A stretch of 64,000 nucleotides of DNA from Prostheceraeus crozeri (lineage: Eukaryota > Platyhelminthes > Polycladida > Euryleptidae). Below are positions 1,054 through 63,292 of this stretch, piece after piece. Both the position numbers and the translations under genes were made by a program. Position 1 is the stretch's first letter. Each line of letters opens with the position of its first letter. Where the stretch lies: the NCBI GenBank assembly GCA_907163375.1, contig CAJQUW010015625.1, forward strand, positions 372,001 through 436,000, in the 5' to 3' direction. Under the pieces are notes generated by a model. The model was not told where the DNA came from and searched no databases. It saw only the letters and a program-made list of their open reading frames with translations.

Positions 1054-1172
1054 AAAGTAAAATAACTAAAGAACGTGAAATATATAATAATACAAAATAA
1101 CTCTCAAGACCTTGATATTAGAATGTTTATATCTAAAATTAAAACACAATTTTTTCTTTAAAAAATAAAAAA

Positions 1173-5520: not shown

Positions 5521-5605
5521 TTTTCTAATTTCTAAGATAGACAAATTTGATATATATATAAAATAAAAAAATAAAATATTATATCACTATATTTGTATAT
5601 TTTTA
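5521..5605. terminator. Convergent 3' intergenic region with AATAAA
   Basis: Short AT-rich spacer between the PolB stop and the convergent ATPase stop. AATAAA occurs on the plus strand at 5562-5567 and 5570-5575, about 45 bp after the PolB stop, fitting a polyadenylation signal. No matching minus-strand signal was seen. Confidence 0.45.
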
Positions 5606-6372
5606 TCACTCGGCAAACAAATGTTCTATAACTCTATCATGAATTTTTTTATCAGTATTAATTGTGATAAATCCATAATCTTTTGACCAAGCATTGTTAC
5701 ACGATTGTTTAAATTCATCTTTATTTCTTACACATAAATCTCTTAACAAATCACTTAAGTTTCTTGCATTTATTTCAAATAGTATAAATATATTTGCATT
5801 CTTTCTAATAACACTTCCGTCTAATGAATACATACTTTGTGTTAAATAAAATACACTACAGTTATTATGTCTACCTCTTGTGAAATAATTTCTCTGAACT
5901 GACTGATTTCTATCATTAACATTATCATCAAAAATTACACAATGTTTCATTGTTTTATCTAGTTTACTAGGATCTTGCATATTACCACTATCATCTATTA
6001 ATTGTATCTTTATATGCTTATTTTTATTGGATTCAACTAACTGATTATTTTTTGCTGCTTCTTCACACCACGAACTTATTTCTTCTTCATCTTCAGATTT
6101 TTCATATTCTTTGAATAATGAAGCAATTGCTGTTTTTTAAGATTATTTTCAAATCCATACTTTAAAAATTGATAGACGGGTTGTTCTGCTGTTGTTGTAT
6201 AAATTATAAGATTGTTATAATCCAAAAAATTTGGAGTCGTTAAAATTTTAAATAATAGATATGTTTTTCCACAACCTGATCTTCCGCAAATAACTGACAA
6301 AACTTTATTAGATAAATTTGGATGATGATTAAATTTAAGTTTTTTTTTATTTAATGGGGGTACTTCACTCAT
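5606..6372 (-). pseudogene. Packaging ATPase (FtsK/HerA, A32-like), one frameshift
   Basis: DNA-packaging ATPase of the virus-like element. The N-terminal part (6372 down to about 6130) carries Walker A GRSGCGKT. The C-terminal part (down to 5606) carries Walker B HCVIFDD and the downstream YLTQSMYSL segment typical of this family. The two parts are in different frames. The C-terminal frame reads on without a stop from about 6125 to its TGA, so a single one-base shift at the T6 run near 6131-6137 accounts for the break. That is either a homopolymer indel or an assembly error; programmed frameshifting is possible but unsupported. It is convergent with PolB and first in the minus-strand block by distance from PolB. 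No membrane segment is visible. Confidence 0.75.
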
Positions 6373-6450
6373 TTTTTAATAAAAAAATTTATTTTTATTT
6401 TATTTTTATTTTTAAAGAAGAAGAAGAAAATTAAACTTCTCTAGCTTCGC

Positions 6451-6537
6451 GTGGGAGTTTATACCTCCCGAACGGGAGTTTATACCTCTCGAACGGGAGT
6501 TTATACCTCCCGAACGGGAGTTTATACCTCTCGAACC
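6451..6537. repeat. 21-bp palindromic tandem repeat, four copies
   Basis: Four head-to-tail units of GGGAGTTTATACCTCCCGAAC, alternating CTCCCG and CTCTCG in the second half. Each unit is itself a hairpin (GGGAG/CTCCC). The stop codon of the minus-strand gene ending at 6522 lies in the last unit, so the repeat has grown at or into that gene's 3' end. It is GC-rich against an AT-rich background. Confidence 0.8.
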
Positions 6538-7307
6538 AAAAGATCTATCATAATCTCTTCACCTCCAAAATTTATTTCTTGTCCTTTCTCATCAGTGATT
6601 CTAATGCCAATGTTAATAGTTTTTCTTGTAATAGGAAAATATATTAATGTTTGGGGAAATACATTTAATCTATAACCAATGGGTACAGTAAAAGCTGGAA
6701 AACTGAATATTAAATTTGACAATTTACCATTTATATATCCTCCTTCAATAATGTCACAATGTACAACAATTGAATTTATTTCAGTTATTTTTGGAGTCTT
6801 CTCACCTAAATGATAACCTTGACTATAGGTTTGTTTATTAAATCCTAATAGCTTTGACAATGATCTATCATGATTAAAATCAACTTGATGATTTTCGTCT
6901 AAAGTAAGAGAAAATTTATTAACTGCCGGTTCAACTGCAAAATGTAATTGTTTCTTATCTTTAAATGGTATACCTAAATTTCTCTTAATTTCATTTGATA
7001 TTGATTCAACTTCGTAAGAACCTTGAAGAAAAGTTAATATTTTCCATGTTTTGCCTTTATCAGTAGAATATCTAAATTGATCATTCACATCTTTGATAAC
7101 GTTTTGAATAGTGTTAAATGTAGAGAAACTAGTCAATGCAATTTGATAATTTTTATTTTGTTCCAAATGTAGAATGGGTTCTAAATTACAAGTGTGTGAT
7201 GAAGTAGTTGTTATAATTTTTAACGTCGTACTAAATTTTGATGAACCCAAAATCTCTGTCAAATTTTCTAAATGATTATTAATTTTGTCTAAATCTGCTG
7301 AACACAT
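6522..7307 (-). CDS. Conserved virus-like element protein, unknown role
   Basis: A 261-residue protein starting at ATG with no frame break. From memory it belongs to a family seen beside Polinton-like PolB genes in arthropod and hydrozoan genomes, recognised by a YQIALTSFSTFNTI strand near residue 54, an LQGSYEVESISNEI motif near 95, a LLGF segment near 145, and a C-terminal half with GGYINGKLSNLIFSFP and PITRKTINIGIRI strands. The pattern of regular beta strands would fit a capsid or spike-type structural protein, but I have no direct evidence. It is third in the minus-strand block read 5' to 3', after the 7387 gene and before the ATPase. The stop lies in the 21-bp repeat at 6451-6537. Confidence 0.65.
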   Translation of the reverse strand: MCSADLDKINNHLENLTEILGSSKFSTTLKIITTTSSHTCNLEPILHLEQNKNYQIALTSFSTFNTIQNVIKDVNDQFRYSTDKGKTWKILTFLQGSYEVESISNEIKRNLGIPFKDKKQLHFAVEPAVNKFSLTLDENHQVDFNHDRSLSKLLGFNKQTYSQGYHLGEKTPKITEINSIVVHCDIIEGGYINGKLSNLIFSFPAFTVPIGYRLNVFPQTLIYFPITRKTINIGIRITDEKGQEINFGGEEIMIDLLVREV

Positions 7308-7375
7308 ATTTTAGTTAAAATTTTGAATAAATGTCTTTTATAAAAAAAATTAAAAACAACAACATATTTCAGCTA

Positions 7376-7403
7376 CGGGCGAAGCCCTAGAACATTCGGT
7401 TCG
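7376..7403 (-). mobile_element. Double-hairpin unit, type A, supplying a stop codon
   Basis: Reverse-strand copy of the unit at 372-400. Read on the minus strand it is CGAACCGAATGTTCTAGG followed by GCTTCGCCCG. The TAG of the next gene (7387-7389) lies inside it, so insertion probably created the present C-terminus. Confidence 0.6.
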
Positions 7404-8211
7404 TTATACTTTTATAATCCTCTTCATTTAGAATCTTCTTTTCTAACAGTCTTTTCAATATAGCATGAATTTCATTGAAACTAGAATTATGTCCTTCTTT
7501 TATTGCCGATATTAAAATATTTAATCTATTTAGTAATTCTTGTGGATCATCTGGTAAAAATACAGTTGTTTCTGTTTTCTGTTTTTCAGATAAACCTTTT
7601 CCTACTTTAACTCCCGTTGATAATAAATTTTCTAATTGTTTATAACGTCTAAGAGATTTTACTGCACCAACTCTATCTAACATAGCTTTATATTTTATGA
7701 GATCTTCTACAGCATAATTATTTAAATCTGCTCCTCTTAAAAGATCAACAAAATTTCTATCTAAATTAAAAAGAGATTTATCTGGTGAAAAAATTAAACC
7801 TCGAAAAGGTTGTTGAAATATTTCTTTTTGTCCGAGATAAAATCTAGGTATTGTTTTTCCATCTATAAATGAAATAGAATGTTCAAATTGCATAGATTTT
7901 GGTAATTTCTTATTAATGTTTGATTCTAGTAATCCATAGTCATCTAATATAGTTTTGTGCTCTGGATCTGTTATATCAATTTGTTTATCATTATTTGTAA
8001 GTTCTTTTTCAAGAGTTTTAAATGGTTTCATAGTTTTTTCAAAATCAGTTTTTACTTACTCGGTTTGCTGCATTTTTTCAAACATATCAGATTGAATACC
8101 AGCTTTTATCATTCTATGTTGAAGATGATTTTCTTTCATAATATTTCTTTGTTTTATTAACTCTTCTAATTGTTTTATTCTTTTAAAATTATCAGCTCTA
8201 ATTTTATCCAT
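7387..8211 (-). pseudogene. Conserved element protein (NNYxxEDL type), in-frame stop
   Basis: Two stretches in the same minus-strand frame, separated only by TAA at 8056-8058, so I read them as one gene. ATG at 8209-8211 opens MDKIRADNFKRIKQLEELI, a charged helical N-terminus usual for the family I recall from arthropod Polinton-like elements. Open frames before 8211 have no ATG. The C-terminal half contains PFRGLIFSPDK, LLRGADLNNYAVEDLIKYK and a basic segment, matching that family's characteristic YxxEDLxxY region. Function is unknown. If the TAA is real, the C-terminal part could restart at the ATG at 8029-8031. The natural C-terminus seems replaced by the double-hairpin unit at 7376-7403. 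Confidence 0.6.
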
Positions 8212-8332
8212 TTTTAAAATATAATATTTGAATTTTGTGGTAACATTGGAATACAACAAAATCATTTTACTGAACAAATTATTTTTTTATTGCTTTGTTG
8301 TCAGACATCTTTTCGTTTAAAGGTTTTTCGTT

Positions 8333-9046
8333 TTAAGTTTTGTTTAATAAAGTTTTGCATAAATTTTCGCTTAAAGTTTTTAGCACTTCTAAAAAAATTT
8401 TATCATTTTCTTCATTAGAAATTTTACTATCAGTAAAAGTTTTACCATCACTAGAAATTTTGCCATCCTGTTTATTCTTATCATCAACTTTTTCTGACTG
8501 TAATTGAAATAATATTTGATTTACTTCATTAGCTATTTGATCAAATTTTTCAATCTCATCTAACGTAATAACATTATCATTACATACTCTTTGAAAGTAG
8601 TAATGTAGTTTATCATAGACTTCTTTAATATGTAAATGCTTAGTTTTTAATGATTTTCGTTTCTTAGTTATTAAAGATTTATCTAACATTGTAACAAGTG
8701 AAGTTGCAAAAACACCCGTACCTGTTAAAGCTGTAGCAACTACTGGAATTACTAAAACACCTGAAGATATAACAATTGTTAAAGCACCTAAACTTATTGT
8801 TAAGAATATGCCAATTCCTTGTGTTAAATTCTTAACTTTTGTCCATCTCTTTCTTAATTTTTTATAATGCTCTAATCTTAATAATAATTGAGATTCTTTA
8901 TCTTTCATATACCCAACTCTGTCTTTATGTTTTTCTTTATTCATCTTTTCGATGTTTATCTTTTCAATGTCCATAAAAGTAGAACTACATTCATATGATA
9001 ACGAAGGATATATTTTTGCGGTTTCTTCCACTTTTGTTTCTTCCAT
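8333..9046 (-). CDS. Membrane protein with coiled-coil, conserved in the element
   Basis: I chose the ATG at 9044-9046 (MEETKVEETAKIYPS), because the frame before it begins only with GTG. The protein has a charged helical N-terminal region, then two adjacent hydrophobic segments (about residues 75-125, rich in Gly/Ala/Val/Ile: GIFLTISLGALTIVISSGVL and beyond), then a long charged helical region. Near the C-terminus a short repeat, built on DGKxxxDSKIS, occurs twice. From memory, proteins of this layout accompany PolB and the GSYE protein in arthropod genomes. A membrane or virion-membrane role is inference. It is first in the minus-strand block. Confidence 0.6.
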   Translation of the reverse strand: MEETKVEETAKIYPSLSYECSSTFMDIEKINIEKMNKEKHKDRVGYMKDKESQLLLRLEHYKKLRKRWTKVKNLTQGIGIFLTISLGALTIVISSGVLVIPVVATALTGTGVFATSLVTMLDKSLITKKRKSLKTKHLHIKEVYDKLHYYFQRVCNDNVITLDEIEKFDQIANEVNQILFQLQSEKVDDKNKQDGKISSDGKTFTDSKISNEENDKIFLEVLKTLSENLCKTLLNKT

Positions 9047-9078
9047 TTTTAAAGAAATATTTTTAGTCACATGATATA

Positions 9079-40638: not shown

Positions 40639-40644
40639 TATCTA
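40639..40644. other. Target site duplication, left (TATCTA)
   Basis: The six bases next to the left terminal repeat, identical in the same orientation to 63287-63292. Six-bp duplications are characteristic of Polinton/Maverick insertion. Confidence 0.93.
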
Positions 40645-41165
40645 AGTAGTAAGTAAAACTCCACCACTGGACCGCGCAAGATGGCCGCCGTCGCTGACGT
40701 CCCCCCTCCTGTCAGTCGAGTCGGTCATGGTGTGCCGTCGTGTTGCTTCGTGTCTGACGTCCCCCCCTCTGGCCGGCCGACGTAGCGCGAGGTGGTGTGT
40801 GCTGCGCTCTCCAGGTTGGCGTGGTGTGCCGGCCAGGTTGGGGGGGTGGAATGTCGTAGCTCACCTGAAAAAATCCTAAGTGTTTTTGTCTAAGACGGAT
40901 TTTGTCTTACAGCTACTCGTTTGAAAGAGGAGAAAAAACTGCTCGACAACATTTTTTGTTGCGAGTCAATCGGACCAGCCGTTCAAAAGTTAGAGCGGTT
41001 ACAAGATTTTAGGTCGGAGCTCACCTGAAAAAATCCTAAATGTCAGAGTGACTTTGTATGGACAAAATTTTGAAAATTTTCCAAAGTGTGTCATTTCGAC
41101 CTGGGACCTTTACCAAAACATTTTTGATCAAATTTCTCCGAACGAGGGGGGAGGGGGGGTCCGTG
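40645..41165 (+). repeat. Left terminal inverted repeat
   Basis: The outer GC-rich block (40645-40862, beginning AGTAGTAAGTAAAACTCCAC) matches the reverse complement of 63005-63286 with one mismatch at base 43 and a missing 64-bp duplication. Inward, 40863-41165 matches about one inverted copy of the 291-bp units seen at the right end, with a deletion at about 40895. Confidence 0.9.
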
Positions 41166-43321: not shown

Positions 43322-43470
43322 GTTACTCCCGAGAACGAACCATCGGCTCTCTTAAGGGCCACCTAGGGGCAAGACATGATAGAACCTCCACGCGGTTTGC
43401 CCTAGGCAGTCTTCGGACTGGCGAATACTATCATTAAGTTGAATCTGCTATCAGTCAACTTGAACGTTAT
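43322..43470 (+). repeat. Direct repeat copy 1 (about 148 bp)
   Basis: Nearly identical to 43859-44007. Both begin GTTACTCCCGAGAACGAACC and end at TCAACTTGAACGTT. Main differences are CTAGGGGC versus CATGGGGC and TAG (43403-43405) versus TGG (43940-43942). In copy 2 the frame VTPENEPSALLRAT stays open, while copy 1 has two TAG codons. Confidence 0.85.
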
Positions 43471-43533
43471 GCAGTCGATTGCCATCCCTGAAGCATTCTG
43501 ATTCGCTGTTGAGCAATTCATTGTTGAAAACCC

Positions 43534-43540
43534 TATATAA
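43534..43540 (+). promoter_or_regulatory. TATA box of the acidic repeat-protein gene
   Basis: TATATAA 42 bp upstream of the ATG at 43582, with an arthropod-type initiator-like TCATTC at about 43562. The short leader leaves no room for a 5' intron. Confidence 0.65.
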
Positions 43541-43581
43541 GCCAGAAGATTGTAGCGCTTCTCATTCAATTTTAAGTCACG

Positions 43582-43851
43582 ATGGAAGCAACATCTGCTA
43601 GTACCATTCCCGACTTCATCATCCTCGACGAGTGGGATGAAGACAACGCCATTCCCGACTTCATCATCCTCGACGAGTGGGATGAAGAGGATGAGAAGAA
43701 GGGGAAGATCAAGAAGATCGTTTGGACGGATGAGGTGTGGACTCCTAATACCACTCGCATCCGAAAGGTGCCAGATGCACCAGCACGGCTTAGGCGGTAT
43801 AGGGTATACGAGAACCTAACCGTCATACCTATTGACTATTCAAGCCAATAG
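43582..43851 (+). CDS. Small acidic protein with 15-residue tandem repeat
   Basis: An 89-residue protein directly downstream of a good TATA box. Residues 9-38 are two near-identical 15-residue units (IPDFIILDEWDEDNA and IPDFIILDEWDEEDE), a 45-bp DNA duplication. It continues with a Lys-rich stretch and a C-terminal basic part. The repeated hydrophobic-acidic motif resembles a short linear binding or transactivation motif, but I recognise no family. It lies between two copies of the direct repeat at 43322 and 43859 and may have been brought in with them. Confidence 0.55.
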   Translation: MEATSASTIPDFIILDEWDEDNAIPDFIILDEWDEEDEKKGKIKKIVWTDEVWTPNTTRIRKVPDAPARLRRYRVYENLTVIPIDYSSQ

Positions 43852-43858
43852 TCATTTT

Positions 43859-44007
43859 GTTACTCCCGAGAACGAACCATCGGCTCTCTTAAGGGCCACC
43901 ATGGGGCAAGACATGATAGAACCTCCACGCGGTTTGCCCTGGGCAGTCTTCGGACTGGCGAATACTATCATTAAGTTGAATCTGCTATCAGTCAACTTGA
44001 ACGTTGC
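43859..44007 (+). repeat. Direct repeat copy 2 (about 148 bp)
   Basis: Second copy of 43322-43470, 537 bp downstream, so the acidic-protein gene is bracketed by direct repeats. 44008-44344 holds no gene I can support. Confidence 0.85.
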
Positions 44008-44344
44008 AAATGAAGTTCGGTGTAATACTTCCTTTCGACGGGCGTTCCTGTAAAGGGCGGCGGTGAAACCCGTAGCTATGTATACCGCAAGGGACATTCG
44101 GCAATGGTCAATCTTGTTAAACCTCTCTGCGGCATGTTTGCAAGTGATTGCCTCTGTTTCAACGTAGTATGCATTCTCGCCAGGGCGACATTTAGCCAAC
44201 TGTCGAAGGTTGCCTAAAACTTTCCATTGCATACGTTATGAGAACCATGAGTTCTACCTGTCTCTATCAATGAGACGAATTGATGAATGGAATGAAATGG
44301 GAGGACACTCACGCGCCACACGCAACATAACACACTTCTCTCTT

Positions 44345-44755
44345 CCGTAGTCTAACAAGCTCTTTACACATGGATCGCAGTCGATTGCTATCCCTGTATC
44401 AGAAGTGTAAGCTATCTTAATTTTATTTGACACTATTTCATCTACCATCATCGCCCATATGAAATGTTATAAGATTTACAAGTTAGACTAAGCGTGCTAC
44501 TATTTCCAAATGAAAAAGTATACATGGTTAAATCATCCACTTAAGCCCATCCGTAGTCTAACAAGCTCTTTACACATGGATCGCAGTCGATTGCTATCCC
44601 TGTATCAGAAGTGTAAGCCATCTTAATTTTATTTAACACATTTTCATGTACCATCATCGCCCATATGAAATGTTATAAGATTTACAAGTTAGACTAAGCG
44701 TGCTACTATTTCCAAATGAAGAAGTATACATGGTTAAATCATCCACTGAAGCCCC
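44345..44755 (+). repeat. 206-bp tandem duplication
   Basis: Unit 44345-44550 is repeated at 44551-44755 with few substitutions (for example GACACTATT versus AACACATTT). Each contains TCGCAGTCGATTGC, also present in part at 43472. No coding sequence is convincing in it. Confidence 0.88.
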
Positions 44756-45722: not shown

Positions 45723-48700
45723 GTGATGTGAGTTCCAGCTCAGGACTCTCGCGACAAGGCAACGAGTGGGAATGTGCCGACTGCGGACATATGTTTACAA
45801 GGAAGCACAGTCTCCTTCGACACATCAAACAACGTGTGTGTCAACGCAAAGCGGCGTCAATCTCCGGAGGTGAAGTTGATTCTGACGATGACATCTCCTT
45901 TCCTTGCGATTTGTGCCCTCTTTCTTTTGATAGTCACTTTCAGCGATCTTCGCACAGACTTCAACACACGCATGCAAATGATCACTACACCAACGGTACC
46001 TCTACCATCTCCCTCATTAATGTTTCACATAATAATTTAGTACGCGACTACTGCATGGAGTCCAATACTCAAATAGTAGATTTTCCTGACTGGCTCCTTC
46101 AAAATTCAAACATTATCGAAGCGCTCTTCAACAATTTAGACAATTTTAGAATGAAGGCGCTCATCTACCTTAAACTAAAATATATTAAAATAGATTTTCA
46201 AACGGGTCAAGTGACGGAGAGAATACAGTTTCATGTTCCTTCCTCTTCCGCAACCGAAGTTGTAGACTGCGAGTCTTGGCTAAATTTTCACATTCAATGT
46301 TTAAAATCAAATGTAGATAAATTCAATCAACGCGACAGCGCTCTCATTTTTGATGGTGTGGACTCAGCCATATTCAAAATTTCCCTATTAGAAAGTCATG
46401 CAGCTCGAGGCACATTTAAACTACCAAAAACGTTGTATAATAAGAAAGCTGTCATCAATGTCGATTGTAAATAGCAGTGTTTCAAATACGCAGTCCTATC
46501 CATCCTTCACTATAATGATATCAACGCGCATCGAGATCGCACCTATAGCTATAGACAGTGGGAGGATGAACTAGACTTTGAAGGTTGTGATAGTAACAAC
46601 ATGAAAATCAAAGATGTAGAAACGTTCGAAAAACATAATAAGATTAAAATTGTCGTTCACGTGTGGGAGAAGGGGTTGAAGGGTGCCCGCTATAATTCAC
46701 GTTCAACTTGTTATGAACGTGTAGTCAACCTCTTATTAGTAAAACAAGATGATAGCGAGGAATGGCACTACTGTGGTATTCCCAAAATCTCTCGCTTGTA
46801 CACACACTTGGGGCACTCTAAAAGAGGTGAACATTTTGTATGCGACCCCTGCATCCGCTCCTTTTGGAGTAAAGATAAATTTGAAACTCACTATGAATGG
46901 TGCAAGCGAGGTAAATTACAAATGGAACGCATGCCCAAAGATAAAATATTTTCACATAGGGATAATGGTGACGAATTAAGTCCCCTGCGTGTCATTTACG
47001 CAGACATAGAATGCTACATTGATGATATCATCCACAAGCCAGCAGCCATATCCCGCTATGAAGTATGGCATGACCACTTTAGAAATAGGCAAAACAAAAT
47101 GCATGCTTGGCAAGGTGAAGATTGTATTTCAAAATTTCTAGAATTTCTCGATAAAGCTGCTAAATTTCAACAATCATATGATTCCCAATTGCAGCGTAAG
47201 TCACTACATATGTCAGATGAAGACAAACAAAAATTTGAAAGTTGCACATCCTGTCCTAAATGTCATAAAACGTTTGATGACGATAAAATTAAGAAAGTGC
47301 GTGATCATGATCACATCACTGGTAAATTTAGAAACGCACTCTGCTCCAAATGTAACTTTTCACTTAGGTTGAGACGTCGTGTACTACCCGTCATTTTTCA
47401 TGACTTTAAGGGCTATGACAGTCATATGCTCATAAAAGGAAGGTTGAGCCAGATGAAATCGTGGCCGTTTAATGTAATAGCGCAAATGAGAGAAAAATTC
47501 ATGGCAATGACAGCAAAAGTACCGGTAGATAAAACTAAAGAAAATAAGACAGTCTTCTTCGAAATAAAATTTTTAGATTCATTCCAATTCATGTCAGCGT
47601 CACTAGCTTCTCTCGTTCGTAATCTCAAGTTTCTTCCCCATAGTCAAACTTTGAAGAAACACTATCCAAACTTAACGGATGAAATAATCACTCGCAAAGG
47701 AGTCTTTCCTTATGCGTATTTTAGCTCAATGTCTAAACTAAATGAAACAACCCTTCCTTCCATTGACAAATTCCAAAACGATTTGACGGGTGAAGATTGT
47801 CCAGTAGAGGACTATGAACATGCTCAAGAGGCATGGTTAAAATTTGATTGTAAAACGTTTGGCGATTATATGATCGCTTACTTAGAATTAGATGTCATTT
47901 TGCTGGCTGATGTCTTTCAGGAATTTCGACGAGTGGCATTAGAAGAAGACAAATTAGATCCTGTCCACTTTGTCAGTATACCAGCCATGTCCTTTAAATC
48001 AGCCTTTAAAATGACTGGTGAGACCATCCATCTCTTACAAGACCCCAAGATGTATAATATATTTGAGCGCGGAATACGCGGTGGTCTCACATTTGTGAAT
48101 AAACATCACATAAAATCTAAAACAGTAGGTAATGATCATATCCACCTAAAGTACTATGACCAAAATAATTTATATGGCAGTTCACTGTCTAAACCACTAC
48201 ATCACTCCGAGTTTAGTTGGTTAAATCAAGATGAGCTTGCGTATTACTCCAACCCTTCAAACATTCTGAAGATTCCAGATGAATGTGATTGGGGATATTA
48301 TTTTGAAGTGGATTTGATTTATCCAAATAGTATTAAAAATAAAACTGCTGATTTCCCACTCGCACCTGAATCTGGTGAAGTGACTGAAGATTTGTTTTCA
48401 CCATTCATGTCACAATTTCATAATAACTTAACAGAGTGTGGACAGCCAAGGTACAAACCATGCCGCAAACTTTTGCTCACCCAATATGATAAGACAAATT
48501 ATCTCGTGCACTTCTGCATACTAAAATTCTATTTAGAAATGAGCATGCTTCTAAAGTCAGTTCACCGCATTATCAAATTTAGACAGAAAGCCTTCCTCAA
48601 ACCCTACATGGATAGTAACAGTCAAAAACGTGCACTAGCCCAAAATAATTTTGAAAAAGATTTTTATAAATATAAGAATAACAGTCTTTTCGGAAAGACC

Positions 48701-49657
48701 ATGGAGGATGTTAGAAAACGCATAAACTACAAACTAGTCACTGATGATCAAAAATATCACAAATTGACCTCATCACCTCTTTTCATTGATAGAGACATTA
48801 TCGATGAGGATCTTGTAGGTGTTAAAATGATAAAATCTGAAGTTGAGTTGTGCAAACCCATCTATATTGGGCAAGCCGTTTTAGATTATTCCAAGCTTGA
48901 AATGTATCAACTCTTCTACAAAATATTAAAACCATGCCCTCTCGTAAAAGAGGTTCGCTTGCTGGGTGGTGATACAGATAGTTTCTTTTTAGGAATTACC
49001 ACTCAAAAAGATTTAAATTTTAATGAAGTAGCTAAGTCATTAGAAAAATATTTCGATACATCTAACTACAATCCCACTCATCCACTCTATTCCATACAGA
49101 ATAAAGCCAAACTTGGTTGTTTTAAGGATGAAACAGCAGGAAAGGAAATAGATGAGATGATTCTCCTCCGTCCTAAAATGTATTCCATGAAATGAAAAGA
49201 ATGTGCAGATAGTATTAAGCGCGCTAAAGGTATATCAAAATCCATTGTTCACAAAATGAAACATCGGTCCTATAAGAAGGCCTATAAAAATAAAACTATA
49301 ACGTTTGTCAATATGACAATCTTAAAATCTCAAGTTCATACTGTGAAAATGCACACGTTCAAGAAACGAGCGCATTCAGCATTGGAGGATAAGAGGTGTT
49401 GGATAGGACATAACACATCTCTTCCACATGGACATCCTGACACAAACGTACCTCCACCCAAAAGAATAAAACTCACGCTACCACATTCAGGAGATGTATT
49501 GACATAATCAACTTTAACTCAGTATTTTGATGTTGCTTTTTGTAGATATACATGGTTGTTTTATGTATCGCATGAGATCGTTTCTTCCTTGTGATTATAT
49601 GCCTACAGTTAGCCCATTCCCCCTATATCTGTGAAAAGAATTTTTCATACACATATT

Positions 49658-51303: not shown

Positions 51304-52686
51304 TCAACGCATCATCGCACAATCGTCATAAATTGCAATATCAATTTGTGGGATGTAGTTTGATTTCAGCTTTGTATAATGCACTTTCTTGAAAGTATGC
51401 TCAGATAAAATACTGCAGCTTTTTGGCTGGTATGGTATCATTGCTAGCAATGGAGCTTCAACATCTCCCACACGTACATCTTCACCAATATTGGAATATA
51501 TCTGAAAATAGTTAATACGACGCGATAGTGACATGTCTGCGCTAGCTTTGGTTACAGTACCACTTTTAAAGATATTTTGATCAAAACCCAAAATGTCCAT
51601 TAGAGTTTTATCCATAATTAGTTCAATACCTTTTCCACTTATAGTGAGAGACAAAACACCTTCTTTTTCAGAAAATGAAATATGTTGCTCATTAATCACT
51701 TCATTTAAATAATCTACAACCAATTTAACCGAAGTAATAATGCGAGGCATCAACACTCTTGTTTCATGTAAGATACCACCTAAAGGCTCTACACACTTTC
51801 TGTATAAAGATACGGTCCATTCTGTATCAAATTGATTTGACCTTTCACATGGTAAATGTTGCATATCAGATTTTCCATGAACAGCTGCAGAACGATGTCG
51901 TAAGAACTGATGAAAATCTTTTGAACAAACTAATACTAGATCATCATCATTTAATTTACTTATTGCAATATGATTAGATGATTTGATATAAGTCAATGTT
52001 GCTACTTGTTTACCATCAACTCGAAGGAGATAATTAAATTTCTTCAATAATGTTTCAGGAGTCATGTTTGTCTTTCGTGGCTTAATCACAATCTTCTTCA
52101 CCAACGTCTTCTCTTTTTTTGGAACAAGATCTACATAATAATCTTCCTCTCGATATATTAACTGTTTATGACCACTTGGGTGGTAATTAACGTTATAATT
52201 ATCATAGCTTGTTAAGGCGCTAGCGAGGTAACCTAAATCATTTCTTAAACTTGGACTTAAGCCAACAATCCAATCTTTCTGAACTACATGATGTACATAA
52301 TTATGATCATCATTGTGCGGAGTAAATTGGATGATGTTTCTACCCTCTTTATTCAGGAAATCATATATAAACTTTTTACATGATAAGAGATCTTTCTTTG
52401 GCCACTGTGGAATGTATACTCGGCATACCTTTTCACATTGGTAAGCAGCTGTACGTCTCATATTAATAGTCATCACCTCATGATCAAAAGTATAGACACA
52501 GTTGCTATAAACAAGTTGAGTGACACCCACTTCCCACTTTCCATTTAGCTGTTGTATATGATCAATGGGAGTAGAAAAGAGTGCGGCTCGATTACTAGCA
52601 AATCTATTTGCGGCCGCATTTTGCTAAGCAAAATATGATAAAACGACATTTTGATATTGCTGATCTGCGGCTTTGCATAACATCAT
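51304..52686 (-). pseudogene. Paralogous Polinton protein B (WEVG domain), one TAG
   Basis: The long open part starts without ATG inside the conserved GKWEVGVTQLVY segment. The same frame extends upstream to ATG at 52681-52686, broken only by TAG at 52624-52626 in the conserved N-terminal region (about codon 20). About 460 codons in all. N-terminal domain and C-terminal half parallel protein A, for example PRIITSVKLVVDYL and the closing IPQIDIAIYD strand, so the two arose by duplication. Its start codon overlaps that of the divergent plus-strand gene at 52685. Virion-surface or minor capsid role is inference from abundance beside capsid genes in such elements. Confidence 0.62.
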
Positions 52687-53041
52687 GAAGACTTGGATTT
52701 TGGACTCTCTGCAATATATCAGAGTTGATCGTGATGGAAACGTGCATTTCAAAAATTCTCATGGTCATGCATCAAGAGGTATTACATTAACATGGCGACA
52801 ATTTGTCAACCTCAATGATATCATGAGGGATTTGGAATATTTTGAAACATTAAGATTCATCTCCTTGGGTGATCAAGTTTGGCTTCAACATCACAGAAAT
52901 GAAATTCAAATTTGCCATTCTCATTCCGCAAACTGTTTCTCATTCCGCAAATACAATTGGGAGAAGTATAGAAGATACATACATCGCTCCATCATGACAT
53001 TTATTCGTCGTGAGTTCATCGCCCTACTATGCAAATCTTAA
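52685..53041 (+). CDS. PC4-like small protein, copy 1
   Basis: A 118-residue protein from ATG 52685-52687. The N-terminal half reads as short beta strands (ILDSLQYIRVDRDGNVHFKN) followed by RGITLTWRQFVNLNDIM, a layout like the ssDNA-binding fold of transcription coactivator PC4/p15, whose strand-turn-helix ends in a GIxLTxxQWxxL-type motif. The C-terminal half is basic and aromatic (WEKYRRYIHRSIMTF). The next gene is a clear paralog. It heads a plus-strand island inside a minus-strand block and is followed by a TBP-like gene, so a role in transcription or in binding melted DNA is plausible. Fold assignment is by eye only. Confidence 0.5.
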   Translation: MKTWILDSLQYIRVDRDGNVHFKNSHGHASRGITLTWRQFVNLNDIMRDLEYFETLRFISLGDQVWLQHHRNEIQICHSHSANCFSFRKYNWEKYRRYIHRSIMTFIRREFIALLCKS

Positions 53042-53063: not shown

Positions 53064-53618
53064 ATGAGTTGGAAATTAGATTCCCTACAACGTATTGAAA
53101 CGGATCATGATCGAAACGTCTATTTCAAAGATTCAACTGGAAATGTGGGAAGAGAGTTTGCTTTATCTTATCGTCATTTTCAATCTCTACATCATATCAT
53201 GAAGGATTTGAAATACTTCTATATGAAAAGACATTCACGTATTGGAAATCGCATCTGGTTGCGCGTCAACAAACGGCGAATTCAACTCTATCATTCCCAA
53301 CTCCATACTAACTTCACATTTCATCAAGGTAGTTGGGAAAAGTATAAAAGGAAGGTATATCGCTCAATTTACTCATTTTTTCATCATGAAGCGCCATCGC
53401 TACACCATCGTCAACATTCTCCGTCGCTTCAGACGCTACACCAAAATCGATCTCACAACATTACACCAACACCTTCCAAACAGCAAGTATTACCCGGGCC
53501 GTCCTCAAATGTTAGTGGTGAAGATGAACAATTCACGGAATCTTCAACTCTTCCCAAATGGGACTGTACAGATTCTCGGCGCCCTTTCTCATTCATCGGG
53601 CAGTCAATGCGCTTATAG
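53064..53618 (+). CDS. PC4-like small protein, copy 2
   Basis: Tandem paralog of the preceding gene, 22 bp after its stop, with the same order: WKLDSLQRIETDHDRNVYFK, REFALSYRHFQSLHHIMKDL, RIGNRIWLRVNKRRIQLYHS and WEKYKRKVYRSIYSFF. Similarity ends at about residue 112. Residues beyond that are low-complexity (Ser/Pro/Gln/His) and overlap the TBP-like gene in another frame, so the natural end may have been near 53400 and the tail may be run-on. The TATA box of the next gene (53343-53350) lies inside this coding sequence. Confidence 0.5.
   Translation: MSWKLDSLQRIETDHDRNVYFKDSTGNVGREFALSYRHFQSLHHIMKDLKYFYMKRHSRIGNRIWLRVNKRRIQLYHSQLHTNFTFHQGSWEKYKRKVYRSIYSFFHHEAPSLHHRQHSPSLQTLHQNRSHNITPTPSKQQVLPGPSSNVSGEDEQFTESSTLPKWDCTDSRRPFSFIGQSMRL
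53343..53350 (+). promoter_or_regulatory. TATA box before the TBP-like gene
   Basis: TATAAAAG, 43 bp before ATG 53386-53388, with a possible start near 53370 (CTCAATTTACTC). It is embedded in the upstream coding frame. Confidence 0.5.
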
Positions 53619-53930
53619 CTACAAAGACTACTACGTCGGATATGGAAGAGGGAGAGGTGTGTGATGTCGAATCTGACTGTGGACAATATGGTGATCTCTA
53701 CTCAATTGAATGAAAGTGTATCATTTTTGAAGATTCGTACCAGCAGTTACAATTTGTGTTATGAACCCGAACTTTTTCCTGCAGCTCTCATTAGTTGTTG
53801 GTTACCTGTGCATGTGTCAATCTTTCATAATAGTAAAGTGATCATTACTGGACTAAAATCTCATGTACAAGCAAATGTGATCCTAGACTATCTCATCGAG
53901 TATGTGCGTACCCAGCGGATTGTAAAATAA
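53386..53930 (+). CDS. TATA-binding-protein-like factor, two overlapping frames
   Basis: TBP is the saddle-shaped, two-lobed protein that binds TATA boxes. Lobe 2 is unmistakable: YEPELFPAALISCWLPVHV followed by SIFHNSKVIITGLKS (about 53759-53850), the YEPELFP-strand-TG pattern of the second TBP repeat. Lobe 1 is in the first frame: YYPGRPQMLVVKM, then LQLFPNGTVQILGALS (about 53487-53570). The first frame has a basic N-terminus (MKRHRYTIVNILRRFRRY) and ends with TGA 53662-53664; the second starts with ATG 53664-53666, so stop and start overlap as TGATG. Either a one-base frame change splits one gene, or two half-TBPs are made by stop-start coupling. TATAAAAG precedes it. Element-encoded TATA recognition is inferred. 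Confidence 0.7.
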
Positions 53931-53956: not shown

Positions 53957-54418
53957 TTATTTCAAATCATGATAGAACTTACAAATCATTTTTTCATTAG
54001 AGGATGGATTACATGAAAAGTTTTGAATAACAGATACAAATCGAGATACATGTAAACGTTTTAAGATGAAGTACAGTACAAAAGCACCACACGTTGATGA
54101 AAGTGGATGTTGTAGTATGCGTTCATTTCGCTGATATTGACGCGTATGTTTTCTCAACCACTGCTGTGTTGGTATATTTGGAGGTTGAGCAAGAGAGTCA
54201 AATAGTTCACCACGTCGGTCTTCTCCAATAAAGATCGCTTTCCAATGCTCACCGCCTAAATTCTGCGAATGAGTGTTTAGCACAATAAAGATGGGATAGT
54301 GATTTACTGCAGGTGGTAAGGTATCGAGCGAATAGACATTATCGAAAGCTTTCAACGTCGCTTCGTCTGAATTACGCTGTACTTTAGTTTTAATATTGTC
54401 AGCAGTCAACCAACTCAT
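53957..54418 (-). CDS. Adenain-like cysteine protease
   Basis: Maturation protease of the adenovirus/Polinton type (C5/C48 clan), which cleaves virion precursors. A 153-residue protein with the expected order of catalytic residues: His in GGEHWKAI (about residue 58), Asp in GELFDSL (about 74) and Cys in SSTCGAFVLYF (about 110). Length is slightly below adenovirus protease, normal for Polintons. The start ATG overlaps the capsid gene stop as TAATG (54416-54420), so the two are probably expressed from one transcript. AATAAA on this strand overlaps the stop region (TTTATT at about 53954). No break seen. Confidence 0.87.
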   Translation of the reverse strand: MSWLTADNIKTKVQRNSDEATLKAFDNVYSLDTLPPAVNHYPIFIVLNTHSQNLGGEHWKAIFIGEDRRGELFDSLAQPPNIPTQQWLRKHTRQYQRNERILQHPLSSTCGAFVLYFILKRLHVSRFVSVIQNFSCNPSSNEKMICKFYHDLK

Positions 54419-55695
54419 TAACGATTATACTGAAGAATCACGTCACGATACTTTGTAATTTCAATATTTGAATCGAAGACTGCATAAATTAATACATTGA
54501 TCGTCTCAGGTAGTGTTCTTTTGAACGTCAAATCCAAACGAATATTATGAGGCACGTTCGCTTGACGATAGGGTGCACTAATATCGCTGTCAGCAGTCAA
54601 ATCAAATGCATAAATGGTATATCCACTCTTAAACTCTTTCATAGTCAGTCCGTTGGTGTCATCCGTATTGTAAAAGCCAAAGACATCCATAAAATCAACA
54701 TAACTGCGCATAAATTGATCCGAAGCAAAATCTGGTTTGTAGGGTGGACCAGGATGACTCACACCATTTACACGTAAAGCAATTTCACTTAACTGATTGT
54801 GTTTAAAATTGAAAGGATTCTTCTTTATATTACCATTAAATGCATCATTTTCAACCATTGCCACCATGAGGAGCTTCGGTGCTTCCGATGGAAAGAGGCC
54901 ATCTTTCATGAAACTCTTTTGATCTTTCGGAATTGTAAAGGTGAGAAGCTTTGTATGCTGAATGGGGTAAATGGCATTTTGGCGGTTAAGACCTTCAGCA
55001 TGCCCTCTAATGACACTTGGATTCGGTACTACTCGACGAATGTAAAGTGCAATATCTTCCACATGAATTCTAAGATTGTCAACTTTAGCAAATGCATTCA
55101 GCGCAAATTCAGGCTTATTCAATGTCAGCTTGAGTCGCATGCTGGTATTACAGAGTAAAAACTTTGACTGTCTAAAGAAGTCTAAATTCAGCGGACCATA
55201 TAGCTGACATACTTTACTATCTTTAATCATAGCAGATCGCTTTACAAAGCCACTGTTTGTTTCAGCATCACATTTTCCTGCTTCATCTCTGTACCATCCC
55301 ATGGCTTCCATATGACTTTTTTGTGCTGCTGGATGAAACTGTGATACATGATTGAAATATGATTTATAGGGATAATCACTTTCACCACCTTCCACCTGCT
55401 GCTCTCCAATCGTTAGAGAAACATCGCGAAGTAATGTAGTCAATGGTAAATTGTTCAGTCCAACTTTATGTGTATCGTCAATAGCAGTTCCATCTGCTTG
55501 CTGAATTCTAAACCTCAAATCAACCATCGCATAACTCAAATCTATGTAGTCATCACTACCACCAGGAATAACAAATTCAATGGGGCCAGCATTCTCAGCT
55601 GTTCGAGGATGATAATCTACAATACTTGAACTAAGAATATCTGTCTGTATGGCTTGTTGATCAAACAAACAAAACCCGGAAGTTTTACACTCCAT
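54418..55695 (-). CDS. Major capsid protein, hexon-like double jelly roll
   Basis: A 425-residue protein with an intact frame. Recognised by FDQQAIQTDILSSSIVDYHP, AGPIEFVIPGGSDDYIDLS, the SYAMVDLRFRI strand, NPFNFKHNQLSEIALRVNG, and a C-terminal half with YTIYAFDLTADSD and IRLDLTFKRTLPETINVLIY. This is the family annotated in many animal genomes as F54H12.2-like and attributed to Polinton capsids. Gene order capsid-protease and the preceding small basic protein (2-bp gap) match adenovirus-like late blocks. Identification as the double-jelly-roll protein is from family knowledge; the fold itself cannot be seen in sequence. Confidence 0.8.
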   Translation of the reverse strand: MECKTSGFCLFDQQAIQTDILSSSIVDYHPRTAENAGPIEFVIPGGSDDYIDLSYAMVDLRFRIQQADGTAIDDTHKVGLNNLPLTTLLRDVSLTIGEQQVEGGESDYPYKSYFNHVSQFHPAAQKSHMEAMGWYRDEAGKCDAETNSGFVKRSAMIKDSKVCQLYGPLNLDFFRQSKFLLCNTSMRLKLTLNKPEFALNAFAKVDNLRIHVEDIALYIRRVVPNPSVIRGHAEGLNRQNAIYPIQHTKLLTFTIPKDQKSFMKDGLFPSEAPKLLMVAMVENDAFNGNIKKNPFNFKHNQLSEIALRVNGVSHPGPPYKPDFASDQFMRSYVDFMDVFGFYNTDDTNGLTMKEFKSGYTIYAFDLTADSDISAPYRQANVPHNIRLDLTFKRTLPETINVLIYAVFDSNIEITKYRDVILQYNR

Positions 55696-56194: not shown

Positions 56195-57283
56195 TCACTG
56201 TTGATCACTTAGATGAAAGATATCGGCACGACGCATCCAAGAGTTCATACTTGAAGGATAACCAGTCCATTTAACAAGACACCATTCTTTACCTTGTCGT
56301 TTTTTACATCGAATGATTTTCTCTACCAAATATGTTTCACTTTCAGTGACTACCTCAATCTCATCGCGGTAAAAGCTACCCTCAATTTCTTCATTATCGT
56401 AATCTTTCAACTTGTAGGTGGTGGGAGAGTCTTTTTGATCAATCCTTGATACTGTAAATACCTCCTCTGTCCAATTCGGAAGGTACCCTTTAGCAAAAAC
56501 ACTCTTCACTTTTGAGATACGAACTTTATCACCAATTTTCACATCACTTTTCACATGAGTGCGTTTACGTTGGAATGATTCGCGCACTTTATCTACATTG
56601 TCAGCATTTACATCTACTGGTCTGAGTCCAATAGAACGATGGATAGAGTGATTGTAGGCATGGAGTGTATCTTGTAGAACCCTTGTCCAATTTTGTGTCA
56701 AGTTGGCAGTAAAATGTCGCCACAAGCGATTTTTTAATGTGCGATTAAAACGTTCAACGAGTGCAGCTTTATAGGCACTCTTTACACTAAACAACTCAAT
56801 GTCATGCCTCTCAAATAATCTTCTCACATGCTGATTTTCAAACTCTTTTCCTTGATCACTCTGAATTCATTTTGGAATGCGACCTTCTCGAAAAATTGTT
56901 TGGAATGCTTTTGCTACTCCTTTCCCTTCTTTAGCTTTTAAAGGTTGAGCCCACGCATAACGCGAGAAAATATCAATGACGGTTAAAATAAAATTATTGC
57001 CCGAGTTATGTTTTGAAATGGAGGCAACATCACACAAATCTGCTTGCCACTGTTCATCGATGTCATGAACAATATAATGGCGGGTGCGGTACTTCTTTTT
57101 CGCTTGTTTGTGGAGTGTATAGGTAGCCTGACCCTTTAACCATCGTTTCACTTGTGATTCTGGAAGACCACTGGCTTTTCATAATTTCTTGATAGATGCA
57201 AATCCTGCCGGATGTTTTACATCATAATAGATTGACTTCAAACGTTCAGTCGATGACGACTGACTCTTTTTCGTCCTTCTCAT
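56195..57283 (-). pseudogene. DDE integrase with chromodomain, two in-frame TGA
   Basis: RVE-type integrase that inserts Polinton DNA. I chose ATG 57281-57283, giving MRRTKKSQ then the typical IYYDVKHPAGFASIKKL. The catalytic core shows D in WQADLCDV, D in IQSDQGKEF and E in ALVERFNRTLKNRLW; SRYAWAQPLK lies between. The C-terminus is a chromodomain (ETYLVEKIIRCKKRQGKEW, CLVKWTGYPSSMNSW). Two TGA codons (57179-57181 after KKL, 56867-56869 after RIPK) break an otherwise continuous frame; the first sits where relatives usually have Trp. Without readthrough the enzyme would be inactive, the second stop lying just before the second catalytic Asp. Confidence 0.87.
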
Positions 57284-57459: not shown

Positions 57460-58152
57460 TTAATAGTCTGAGAACATGTATTTCTTGGGAGGAGGTGTTT
57501 TGCGTTTTCCTTTTACTAGTTTTAGTGGTGGCGTAGATCTACGACGAGTTCTTCCTCTTGTTTGCTTATTGAGTGTGGGAGGGGATGTAGCAGGTGACGT
57601 CTTAAACCAATTTGTTGGCATTTTCATCGTCTGAAGCATTGGAGCAGTAGCCACTGTTGAATCAAGTTCTTTCAATGTCTCATTATTCAAAGCAAATTTT
57701 GGCACATTATGCTTTTTCAATAGTTTAAGAAAGTATGACCAACCAGGTGGAACATAGCCCTGACGGCACTTTCTACGTGTCGCATGCGGAATCAAGTCTT
57801 CATAACGTGAAGCATCAATCACTTTATTTTCATCTGTAATGATTTCTCCTCTATCATTTACATTGAGATGGGGTTCAATACTGTTGAAAAGAGATATGGC
57901 ATGTGCGCGAGATGCTAAAGGTGTAGCAGTCGATACCGAGTCACGCATCTTATTCTTCAAGCTTTTCAATTGCTCAACAGTTTCCGATTGTAATAATACA
58001 GCACGATGTGGATCTTTGATGTGAACATTTTGCTGATAATCTATTTCTTTCCTATACATTTGATTTGCAAGAGGTTGCTTTACTTGCTGCATGACAGTCA
58101 ATTGTACATATTCATCCTGAGGAATAACAATCATGCGAGAATAAGAACTCAT
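57460..58152 (-). CDS. Conserved Polinton protein, unknown function
   Basis: A 230-residue protein whose ATG overlaps the upstream ATPase stop as ATGA (58149-58152). N-terminal RMIVIPQDEYVQL is a motif I recall at the start of a protein found beside the ATPase in several animal Polintons. The middle is helical and charged, with a YVPPGWSYFLKLLKKHNVP segment near residue 150. The C-terminus is Pro/Arg/Lys-rich (RGRTRRRSTPPLK and PPPKKYMFSDY). The basic tail suggests DNA or virion-core contact. No catalytic motif seen. Confidence 0.65.
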   Translation of the reverse strand: MSSYSRMIVIPQDEYVQLTVMQQVKQPLANQMYRKEIDYQQNVHIKDPHRAVLLQSETVEQLKSLKNKMRDSVSTATPLASRAHAISLFNSIEPHLNVNDRGEIITDENKVIDASRYEDLIPHATRRKCRQGYVPPGWSYFLKLLKKHNVPKFALNNETLKELDSTVATAPMLQTMKMPTNWFKTSPATSPPTLNKQTRGRTRRRSTPPLKLVKGKRKTPPPKKYMFSDY

Positions 58153-58766
58153 AGTTTGTAGATAATCATGGGAGTTTTCAAAATATCACTTTGAAATCTA
58201 AATTCTTCCGGACACTCTTGCGTAAAGTCAATGAATAAGTAACCGTGTGGTTTTTCAGTAGCTGCTTGAAAAATTTCAATTAAGGCTTTTGATCCTCTGG
58301 GTGCAACTTGTCGCGCTAAAATTTCAAATTGACTTTTATCTCGCGGATTCTTGAAAACAGCATAATAGTGTGTATTCAGGTTTCGTGTACGAGCTTCTTT
58401 TCCATCAGGAAACAAATTTTGTGTGATATAGATGATAAAGCACCTTTTATGATGTGCTGCGCGAGTGAACATATCTGTAACATCTTTTGAATTTTTACTT
58501 TCTTTTAATAAATCATCCAATACAACAACATCATTAGACTGAAGTTTATCCACTGCAATAATTCCTTCATGTCGAATAAAGTTGCGACTTTGCAATTCCT
58601 GAAACAGCGACGGTTGATAAATACCATAACACAAAATCACTCGATTGATAGGTTCCTTAAACAACTCTCTTCTTTTATCCAATAAATTCAGCGTGAAAAC
58701 AGTTTTACCTGCATGAGATGGACCTGATACAGTCAGAACTTTATCACATTGAAGTCTGAAATCCAT
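58149..58766 (-). CDS. Packaging ATPase (FtsK/HerA, A32-like)
   Basis: DNA-packaging ATPase. I use ATG 58764-58766 (MDFRLQCDKVLTVSG); upstream in-frame sequence starts only with GTG. Walker A is GPSHAGKT, Walker B VVVLDDLL, and YITQNLFPDG follows as in the A32-like family, with an Arg-rich KEARTRNLNTHY after it that may supply the arginine finger. 206 residues, normal for Polintons. It sits between the QKGGFLPALL protein and the unknown 57460 gene, whose start it overlaps by four bases. Intact, in contrast to the ATPase of the AT-rich element at 5606-6372, with which it shares only the motifs. Confidence 0.87.
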   Translation of the reverse strand: MDFRLQCDKVLTVSGPSHAGKTVFTLNLLDKRRELFKEPINRVILCYGIYQPSLFQELQSRNFIRHEGIIAVDKLQSNDVVVLDDLLKESKNSKDVTDMFTRAAHHKRCFIIYITQNLFPDGKEARTRNLNTHYYAVFKNPRDKSQFEILARQVAPRGSKALIEIFQAATEKPHGYLFIDFTQECPEEFRFQSDILKTPMIIYKL

Positions 58767-58797
58767 TATAATACTTTGAGATTCAACATTTGCATAA

Positions 58798-59148
58798 TTA
58801 ACGTCTAGAGCCACAGATATTACCCAATACGTTGCCCACGATAGGAGCTAGCATCGGTAGTAACGCTGGAAGGAAACCGCCCTTTTGTGTTAGAGTTTCC
58901 CTCTTTCTTTGAAGGGTGACTTTAGGATTGGAGATGCAACGCAATTTCGTAGCATATCGCTTAAGTAACTTTCGTTGTTTTGGTGCTAATTTCTTCGTCC
59001 TCAACTTTCCGACATGAGAAATAATTTCACGAATGAATTTATCGTTAGCATGTCGTATAGCATTGTATCGCTGATTTGCTTTCATTCGTCGGAGAGTTTG
59101 AATGGCTGAAGAAAACTTTGAAGACTTTTGACTTTTACGTTTCGCCAT
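58798..59148 (-). CDS. Basic Polinton protein with hydrophobic C-terminus
   Basis: A 116-residue protein of a family common in animal Polintons: basic helical N-terminal two thirds (RRMKANQRYNAIRHAND, LAPKQRKLLKRYATKLR) and a conserved ending TQKGGFLPALLPMLAPIVG with a hydrophobic C-terminal helix. KGGF is a plausible viral protease site. A virion core or membrane-interacting role is inference. It lies 31 bases before the ATPase start. Confidence 0.6.
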   Translation of the reverse strand: MAKRKSQKSSKFSSAIQTLRRMKANQRYNAIRHANDKFIREIISHVGKLRTKKLAPKQRKLLKRYATKLRCISNPKVTLQRKRETLTQKGGFLPALLPMLAPIVGNVLGNICGSRR

Positions 59149-62212: not shown

Positions 62213-63286
62213 TGTCTCACTCTTAGCTTTCAAACGAGCTATTGCACGACAAAATCCATCCACTAGAAGCAAAATTGGAAGTTTGGTGTCGGGGGGGGGC
62301 GGGTCGGTGAAATTTGATGAAAAATGTTTTGGTAAAGGTCCCAGGTCGAAATGCCACACTTTGGAAAATTTTCAAAATTTTACCCATACAAAGCCACTCT
62401 GACACTTAGGATTTTTTCAGGTGAGCTCCGACCTAAAATCTTGTAACAGCTCTAACTTTTGAACGGCTGGTCCGATTGACTCGCAACAAAAAATGTCATC
62501 GAGCAGTTTTTTCTCCTCTTTCAAACGAGTAGCTGTAAGACAAAATCCGTCCACTAGAACCAAAGTTAGAAGATCGCTGTCGGGGGGGGGGGGTCGGTGA
62601 AATTTGATGAAAAATGTTTTGGTAAAGGTCCCAGGTCGAAATGCCAAAGCTTTGGAAAATTTTCAAAATTTTACCCATACAAAGCCACTCTGACACTTAG
62701 GATTTTTTTAGGTGAGCTCCGACCTAAAATCTTGTAACCGCTCTAACTTTTGAACGGCTGGTCCGATTGACTCGCAACAAAAAAATGTCATCGAGCAGTT
62801 TTTTCTCCTCTTTCAAACGAGTAGCTGTAAGACAAAATCCGTCCACTAGAACCAAAGTTAGAAGATTGCTGTCGGGGGGGGGGGGGTCGGTGAAATTTGA
62901 TGAAAAATGTTTTGGTAAAGGTCCCAGGTCGAAATGACACACTTTGGAAAATTTTCAAAATTTTGTCCATACAAAGCCACTCTGACACAGGATTTTTTCA
63001 GGTGACCTACGACATTCCACCCTCCCAACCTGGCCGGCACACCACGCCAACCTGGAGAGCGCAGCACACACCACCTCGCGCTACGTCGGCCGGCCAGAGA
63101 GAGGGGGGACGTCAGACACGAAGCAACACGACGGCACACCACGACCGACTCGACTGACATGAGGGGGGGACGTCAGACTCGAAGCAACACGACGGCACAC
63201 CACGACGGACTCGACTGACAGGAGGGGGGGACGTCAGCGACGGTGGCCATCTTGCGCGGTCCAGTGGTGGAGTTTTACTTACTACT
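62213..63286 (-). repeat. Right terminal inverted repeat with three 291-bp units
   Basis: The outer GC-rich block 63005-63286 mirrors the left end and contains an extra 64-bp tandem copy (GACGTCAGACTCGAAGCAAC compared with GACGTCAGACACGAAGCAAC). Inside it are three direct units, each with a poly-G tract (62288, 62579, 62871), giving periods of 291 and 292 bp; the innermost, 62213-62509, is the most diverged. Confidence 0.88.
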
Positions 63287-63292
63287 TATCTA
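63287..63292. other. Target site duplication, right (TATCTA)
   Basis: Identical to 40639-40644, immediately outside the right terminal repeat. Confidence 0.93.

Follow-up and report, generated by a model that had tools for sequence, protein, structure and literature searches.

The window, by which we mean the whole stretch of 64,000 nucleotides of Prostheceraeus crozeri DNA analysed here, contains a Polinton at positions 40645-63286 (22,642 bp). The preliminary description of this DNA had proposed a bounded element; its boundaries are inverted repeats and a 6-bp target duplication, the hexamer TATCTA being present on both sides. Inside these boundaries lies a gene with the two lobes of a TATA-binding protein (TBP), and the features used below are the following.

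40639..40644, no strand: target-site duplication TATCTA, left copy
40645..41141, plus strand: left terminal inverted repeat
46475..49507, plus strand: DNA polymerase B (PolB) and endonuclease VII region, with a stop inside in the window copy
52685..53041, plus strand: DSa, a tandem paralogue of DSb (43% identical)
53064..53618, plus strand: DSb, the upstream ORF, of 184 aa in the window copy; part of it coincides with lobe 1 in a different frame
53343..53351, plus strand: TATAAAAGG box, 43 bases 5' of the lobe 1 ATG and within the upstream ORF
53386..53664, plus strand: TBP lobe 1 frame, 92 aa, the 3' end of which leaves the lobe 2 frame
53664..53930, plus strand: TBP lobe 2 frame, 88 aa, with a YEPELFP stirrup
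53957..54418, minus strand: adenain/Ulp1-like protease, a weak match (Peptidase_C48 E 0.001, Peptidase_C5 E 0.044, both below the cut-off)
54418..55695, minus strand: candidate major capsid protein, 425 aa, named from position and size only
56195..57178, minus strand: integrase with chromodomain, with a stop inside in the window copy
58149..58814, minus strand: candidate packaging ATPase (AAA_14 E 0.0027, Pox_A32 E 0.031, both below the cut-off)
62304..63286, minus strand: right terminal inverted repeat, with 291-base sub-repeats
63287..63292, no strand: target-site duplication TATCTA, right copy

The polymerase and TBP genes of the window element

The element shares with Polintons (Mavericks) the terminal inverted repeats, the 6-bp duplication, PolB and an integrase with chromodomain, together with putative protease-like and ATPase-like genes whose matches stay below the cut-offs, and differs from the known ones by the addition of the TBP and DS genes. 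The PolB region matches Endonuclease_7 with an E-value of 7.6e-7 and has no Pfam polymerase match of its own; it is 27% identical over 888 columns to an ORF matching DNA_pol_B_2, and by this homology it is assigned to PolB, presumably of the protein-primed type of Polintons. The integrase, which scores above the cut-off for Chromo (E 1.1e-7) and below it for rve_3 (E 0.0034) and rve (E 0.0028), is taken to be of the retroviral type that Polintons carry. The candidate capsid protein gave neither a Pfam match nor a PDB sequence match that would tie it to the double jelly-roll capsids of Polintons, and has homologues in two of the three lineages described below (A and B). At the place of the PolB stop the frame is open in all six other copies checked, and at that of the integrase stop in all eight, so the window holds a decayed copy, belonging to lineage A.

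The TBP-like gene extends over 53386..53930, as the preliminary description had placed it. When both frames were searched against the PF00352 profile, two matches above the cut-off of 22.9 bits were obtained, one for lobe 1 (53386-53664; E 6.7e-9, 35.9 bits) and one for lobe 2 (53664-53930; E 9.3e-9, 35.4 bits). The suggestion that lobe 1 is the weaker of the two thus does not hold for the profile, where the lobes score alike, while it does hold against the sequences of solved TBPs (phmmer), where lobe 2 finds the M. jannaschii TBP at a best E of 1.5e-13 and lobe 1 an archaeal TBP at a best E of only 0.0028. In the window copy the lobes lie in different frames, the start of lobe 2 overlaps the lobe 1 stop codon, and the lobe 2 frame is closed by a stop ahead of the lobe itself; this copy is unable to yield a two-lobe protein through ordinary translation.

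Some further features of the window were observed in passing. Duplicated stretches of 147 and 205 bases, the second in tandem, occupy 43322-44754 in the left part of the Polinton. A second virus-like element, which is AT-rich, at 228-9070 encodes a PolB of 1136 aa (DNA_pol_B_2, E 3.7e-15) and, at 5606-6372, something that by eye resembles packaging-ATPase fragments; among its ORFs that were scanned there was no TBP match. Between about 9600 and 38500 there is a tandem array with a period of approximately 1614 bases, judged from the spacing of repeated ORFs, and one ORF of its unit resembles by eye the end of a LINE reverse transcriptase.

Copies, relatives and descent of the Polinton TBP

The P. 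crozeri genome (2.05 Gb) was searched with the PF00352 profile, and the best 150 of 10,982 candidate places were scored. Four of these belong to the standard host TBP (C9306) and to a TRF2-like host gene (C3829, L002), which leaves 146, and a stop interrupts the matched stretch in 8 of them. With the full-length relative P0036 (see below) as query, 147 of the best 150 of 11,747 candidates contained no stop, and most of them lay in open frames 234 residues long. Both sets consist of top-scoring places and will favour intact copies, and 20 loci from the head of the PF00352 list, fetched as stretches of 8 to 9.9 kb, were inspected individually. When these were searched with the window proteins, PolB or the candidate capsid gene was found within the fetched stretch at every one of the 20. 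The search in related Polintons that the preliminary description had called for thus places the gene beside Polinton genes throughout, and together with its position inside the inverted repeats and target duplication of the window element this supports the view that TBP is carried by a Polinton. The 20 loci fall into three diverged lineages.

Lineage A: L015, L016, L017, L019, L020, L021, L025; TBP lobes 92-98% identical to the window
Lineage B: L009, L010, L012 and the rearranged L014; TBP lobes 39-48% identical to the window
Lineage C: L011, L013, L018, L022, L023, L024, L026, L027, L028; TBP lobes 37-55% identical to the window

Both lobes stand in one open frame in 14 of the 20 loci, the interrupted ones being L011, L013, L014, L018, L019 and L027. 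In lineage A and in L009, L010 and L012 the TBP gene sits between the P408/P227 genes and the protease, and in lineage A the DS genes intervene there as well. The matches to P271, P227 and P408 lie on the TBP strand in L014 and on the opposite strand in L009, L010 and L012. The many unbroken copies of the gene in the genome suggest that the element helps to steer its own gene expression.

In a protein collection the lobe 2 query found 35 proteins, of which 31 are stand-alone ORFs of 77-90 aa, while P0007, a protein in which lobe 2 is preceded by the last part of lobe 1, retrieved 26, with 22 of a single lobe. The lobe 1 query returned no candidate for a stand-alone lobe 1 homologue from this collection, possibly an effect of gene calling. 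Three of the proteins retrieved with P0007, namely P0036, P0037 and P0038 (177-202 aa), contain both lobes, and each matches PF00352 in two stretches (E 7.2e-23 to 7.4e-19). The best match of P0036 in the P. crozeri genome is just 71% identical, and we therefore take it to belong to another genome or to a lineage that the assembly does not include. The fold of P0036 was predicted with AlphaFold2 from an alignment with 26 further sequences (the window lobe 2 and 25 of the 39 remaining database proteins), giving a mean pLDDT of 80.4, with the five models spanning 55.7-80.4. In Foldseek searches the model matched archaeal and eukaryotic TBP structures with a best E of 4.5e-12 (query TM 0.66-0.74 over the 44 matches with E <= 0.001; highest target TM 0.81), so that the two-lobe saddle is found in the predicted structure of this relative of the window protein. 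Among viral structures the named top matches were giant-virus TBPs. Scanning of viral contigs with the element proteins, and also with the host TBP, produced no confirmed relative. Profile, solved-structure sequences and predicted fold of the full-length relative are thus in agreement with the identification of both lobes as TBP in the preliminary description.

For the descent of the gene a tree was made from 9 of the 14 intact loci, P0036-P0038, the host TBP, the host TRF2-like gene, and one fungal and one archaeal TBP; it contained no viral TBP. All Polinton TBPs formed a single clade, set apart by a branch of support 1.000, and the host TBP was not their closest relative. Among themselves the lineages are 41% (A-B), 43% (A-C) and 55% (B-C) identical, and six representative Polinton TBPs are 23-26% identical to the host TBP. 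The separate clade together with this low identity argues against a recent capture of host TBP. Of the two outcomes named beforehand as speaking against a Polinton TBP, neither was seen: there are profile matches, and there is no capture of host TBP in a single copy. From the single clade and the place beside Polinton genes, it is most likely that TBP was present in this Polinton group before lineages A, B and C split. Among the 14 intact, high-scoring copies the pooled pN/pS values are moderate (0.42 for the 6 copies of A, 0.50 for the 3 of B and 0.56 for the 5 of C), with single pairs ranging widely; between lineages the synonymous sites are near saturation and mean dN is 0.43-0.63.

The residues of the Polinton TBP can be compared with work on yeast and human TBP, from which we assume the roles in DNA intercalation (the four Phe), in minor-groove contacts and in contact with TFIIB (the YExEL stirrup of lobe 2). 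Like eukaryotic and archaeal TBPs (PF00352), the Polinton protein has two lobes of approximately 85 residues, with the TBP fold as predicted for P0036. The Asn of each lobe, the second Phe of lobe 1 and both Phe of lobe 2 are kept in every Polinton row covering them, i.e. three of the four presumed intercalating Phe and both Asn of the DNA-contact set. Most copies have YEPEL or YETEL as their stirrup, and L022, P0036 and L020 depart from this by one residue. Unlike the TBPs of eukaryotes and archaea, the Polinton proteins have Pro in place of the first lobe 1 Phe in all rows covering the position, Leu or Met (Phe in L017) in place of the usual lobe 1 Thr, and one residue fewer in a turn of each lobe, and they are 21-31% identical to the TBPs of the host, a fungus and an archaeon used for comparison.

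The gene is also found in an element without matches to the capsid set or the integrase. A complete lineage C element at C2114:38887-58336 (L028-L030; 19,450 bp), read end to end in three pieces, is flanked by two copies of the hexamer TATATA and shares its terminal AGTAGTAAG with the window element; TATATA is a simple AT repeat and is for that reason weaker as a duplication than the TATCTA of the window. Besides TBP it contains a PolB with 62% identity to the window PolB, a DS gene and further ORFs, and it differs from known Polintons in that no match was found to the candidate capsid, ATPase and protease (E up to 0.01), nor to the integrase at an E of up to 0.001. In the remaining eight loci of lineage C, the stretches up to about 5 kb from TBP likewise gave no match to any of these four genes. 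In L010 of lineage B, where PolB is 64% identical to that of the window, there are capsid and ATPase matches at 54% and 65%. Since the C2114 element has TBP and PolB and none of the four other genes found a match in it, the TBP protein is likely to be needed inside the cell, for expression or replication, and not for the particle.

The TATA box and the overlapping DS frame

It was stated in the preliminary description that the genes of the element have clear TATA boxes, and the counts do not support this. The element contains 23 TATAWAW sites against 20.6 +/- 5.3 in shuffled sequence, and such a site lies within 200 bases upstream of 3 of 22 gene starts, that of the TBP gene among them; TATAWAWR with at most one mismatch lies within 120 bases of 8 of 22 gene starts, compared with 34% of random windows. 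At the TBP gene itself the box is conserved. The exact TATAAAAGG is found in 16 of the 20 TBP loci, once in each and at the TBP gene, and nowhere else on either strand of the fetched stretches, at a distance of 43 bases upstream of the TBP start codon in the window, lineage A and L028, and of 46 in L010. Near matches are present in L009, L022 and L024; L014 has neither the box nor a near match in the 60 bases read. As the box covers Tyr-Lys-Arg codons of the upstream DS gene, its conservation may be partly due to coding. A shared motif upstream of the element genes did not emerge, the best 8-mer being present at 9 of 20 and at up to 9 in shuffles, with 7-mers and 9-mers behaving likewise.

The overlap of a DS frame with TBP lobe 1 recurs in lineages A, B and C, and in 13 of the 20 loci, from all three lineages, a DS ORF extends 293-329 bases into TBP before it stops. 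Among the 14 intact loci, 12 have an uninterrupted alternate frame of 102-108 codons, L026 one of 97 and L012 one of 47; under simulated synonymous recoding, no more than 0.2% of runs gave a frame as long as that observed at 13 of these loci, and 3.7% did so at L012. In a comparison of 12 of the intact loci, leaving aside L012 and L026, neither amino acid identity of the alternate frame between lineages nor synonymous divergence improved on the values for lobe 2. An open frame is thus established, and selection on its product is not supported. The extension of P0036 resembles the DSb frame at 12 of 17 positions, a result obtained in 0.0005 of shuffles; as evidence for the overlap this comparison is superseded by the genomic loci.

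A short FSF motif recurs in those tails of the DS proteins that were compared, as does an acidic stretch that carries SIE at its end or close to it. By eye the DS genes had appeared PC4-like, a reading that was dropped: there was no PC4 match in Pfam, the best PDB sequence matches had E-values of 0.0061 (adiponectin) and 0.1, and the model was poor (mean pLDDT 48.3), with no fold match under E 0.001.

Possible roles of the Polinton TBP

In the model that we prefer, with a probability of roughly 0.6, the Polinton TBP would recruit host TFIIB and RNA polymerase II to the promoters of the element, while its own gene would be read by the host from TATAAAAGG. Judging from the box, host TBP and RNA polymerase II would transcribe the TBP gene from this canonical site, and the conserved motif suggests that the product would then bind element promoters and bring host TFIIB and polymerase II with it. 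The retained TFIIB-facing stirrup of lobe 2 and the three intercalating Phe support such recruitment. With its altered DNA face, lobe 1 may prefer a site other than the standard TATA box, which would fit the absence of TATA boxes before most other genes; that no motif upstream of the element genes rose above shuffles weighs against the model. A tentative extension, possible and rather doubtful, is that the changed lobe 1 reads a promoter class of the element's own and switches polymerase II from a TATA-driven early TBP gene to TATA-less element genes. The Polinton group would on this account carry a complete, diverged general transcription factor, whose gene is nested by overlap with the upstream gene, both persisting where the capsid set is not found.

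The same changes could be read as those of a decoy protein, which would deprive the host TBP of TFIIB or of TATA sites and so dampen transcription in the host or its response, with no initiation at the element. The TFIIB-facing motif stays while the lobe 1 DNA face is changed, and the loss of one intercalating Phe and of the usual Thr in all covering rows could weaken productive binding. We find this rather improbable, because the DNA face of lobe 2 is kept along with the motif, and because the gene is retained in the lineage C copy without a capsid match, where damping of an antiviral response seems less needed. That same copy, with TBP and PolB retained and capsid, ATPase, protease and integrase unmatched, would suit a DNA-bending protein that serves replication or integration, for example at the inverted repeats, and is no longer a transcription factor; replication would not need the YExEL stirrup kept in most copies, and the gene has its own TATA box, so we regard this role as unlikely, slightly more so than the preceding one.

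Two further explanations concern the state of the gene. If two single-lobe proteins were the working form, the split in the window would be by design and not by decay, and the predominance of single-lobe proteins among the database relatives of lobe 2 and P0007, as well as the overlapping stop and start in the window, could be cited for it. It is nonetheless very improbable in view of the single open frame in most of the inspected loci and the near absence of stops among the best P0036 matches; moreover, the ORF overlapping lobe 1 may have led gene callers to split the gene artificially, and PolB and integrase of the window carry stops too. For a host TBP captured once by the window copy, or a chance resemblance, nothing was found in favour, and the many copies in three lineages, the separate clade and the low identity of the six representatives to host TBP leave it with hardly any credibility.

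A second, diverged protein of the TBP type is known from animals in the form of the TRF2 gene, and the presence of such a gene in addition to a standard TBP points to an animal host. The TRF2-like gene of the host (L002) is similar to the Polinton TBP in this respect, and differs in sequence, with 18-26% identity and with His and Tyr at the two lobe 2 Phe positions; fly TRF2 is treated in the available passages of PMC11125864. The TBPs of giant viruses and mirusviruses resemble that of the Polinton in being virus-encoded, giant-virus proteins being among the top viral fold matches, and differ in belonging to large genomes, while the elements here are transposons of 22.6 and 19.5 kb. Several of the large-genome viruses with a TBP encode their own RNA polymerase. 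In the portions available of the respective papers, a TBP cluster is given for 59% of mirusvirus genomes (PMC10132985), TBP is listed in a gene table of the Mimiviridae (PMC3620924), and TBPs are described as sporadic in elements of putative mirusvirus origin (PMC10675990). We found no report of TBP in a Polinton in the open-licence PMC literature on Polintons/Mavericks, adintoviruses and virophages, although one in a subscription paper or preprint is possible. In the available passages of four papers, mention of TATA or TBP was confined to the reference list (PMC12220804), to unrelated uses (PMC7786948) and to a primer sequence (PMC11640650), or did not occur (PMC12721341).

With a TBP encoded by a transposon that in other respects relies on RNA polymerase II of the host, a general transcription factor would be in the service of a selfish element. 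The expression of such elements, and a possible disturbance of host promoters by them, could then be studied directly, and the many intact copies in one genome make its role testable. Because Polintons are proposed relatives of several groups of eukaryotic DNA viruses, the finding also bears on the origin of the TBPs of giant viruses and mirusviruses.
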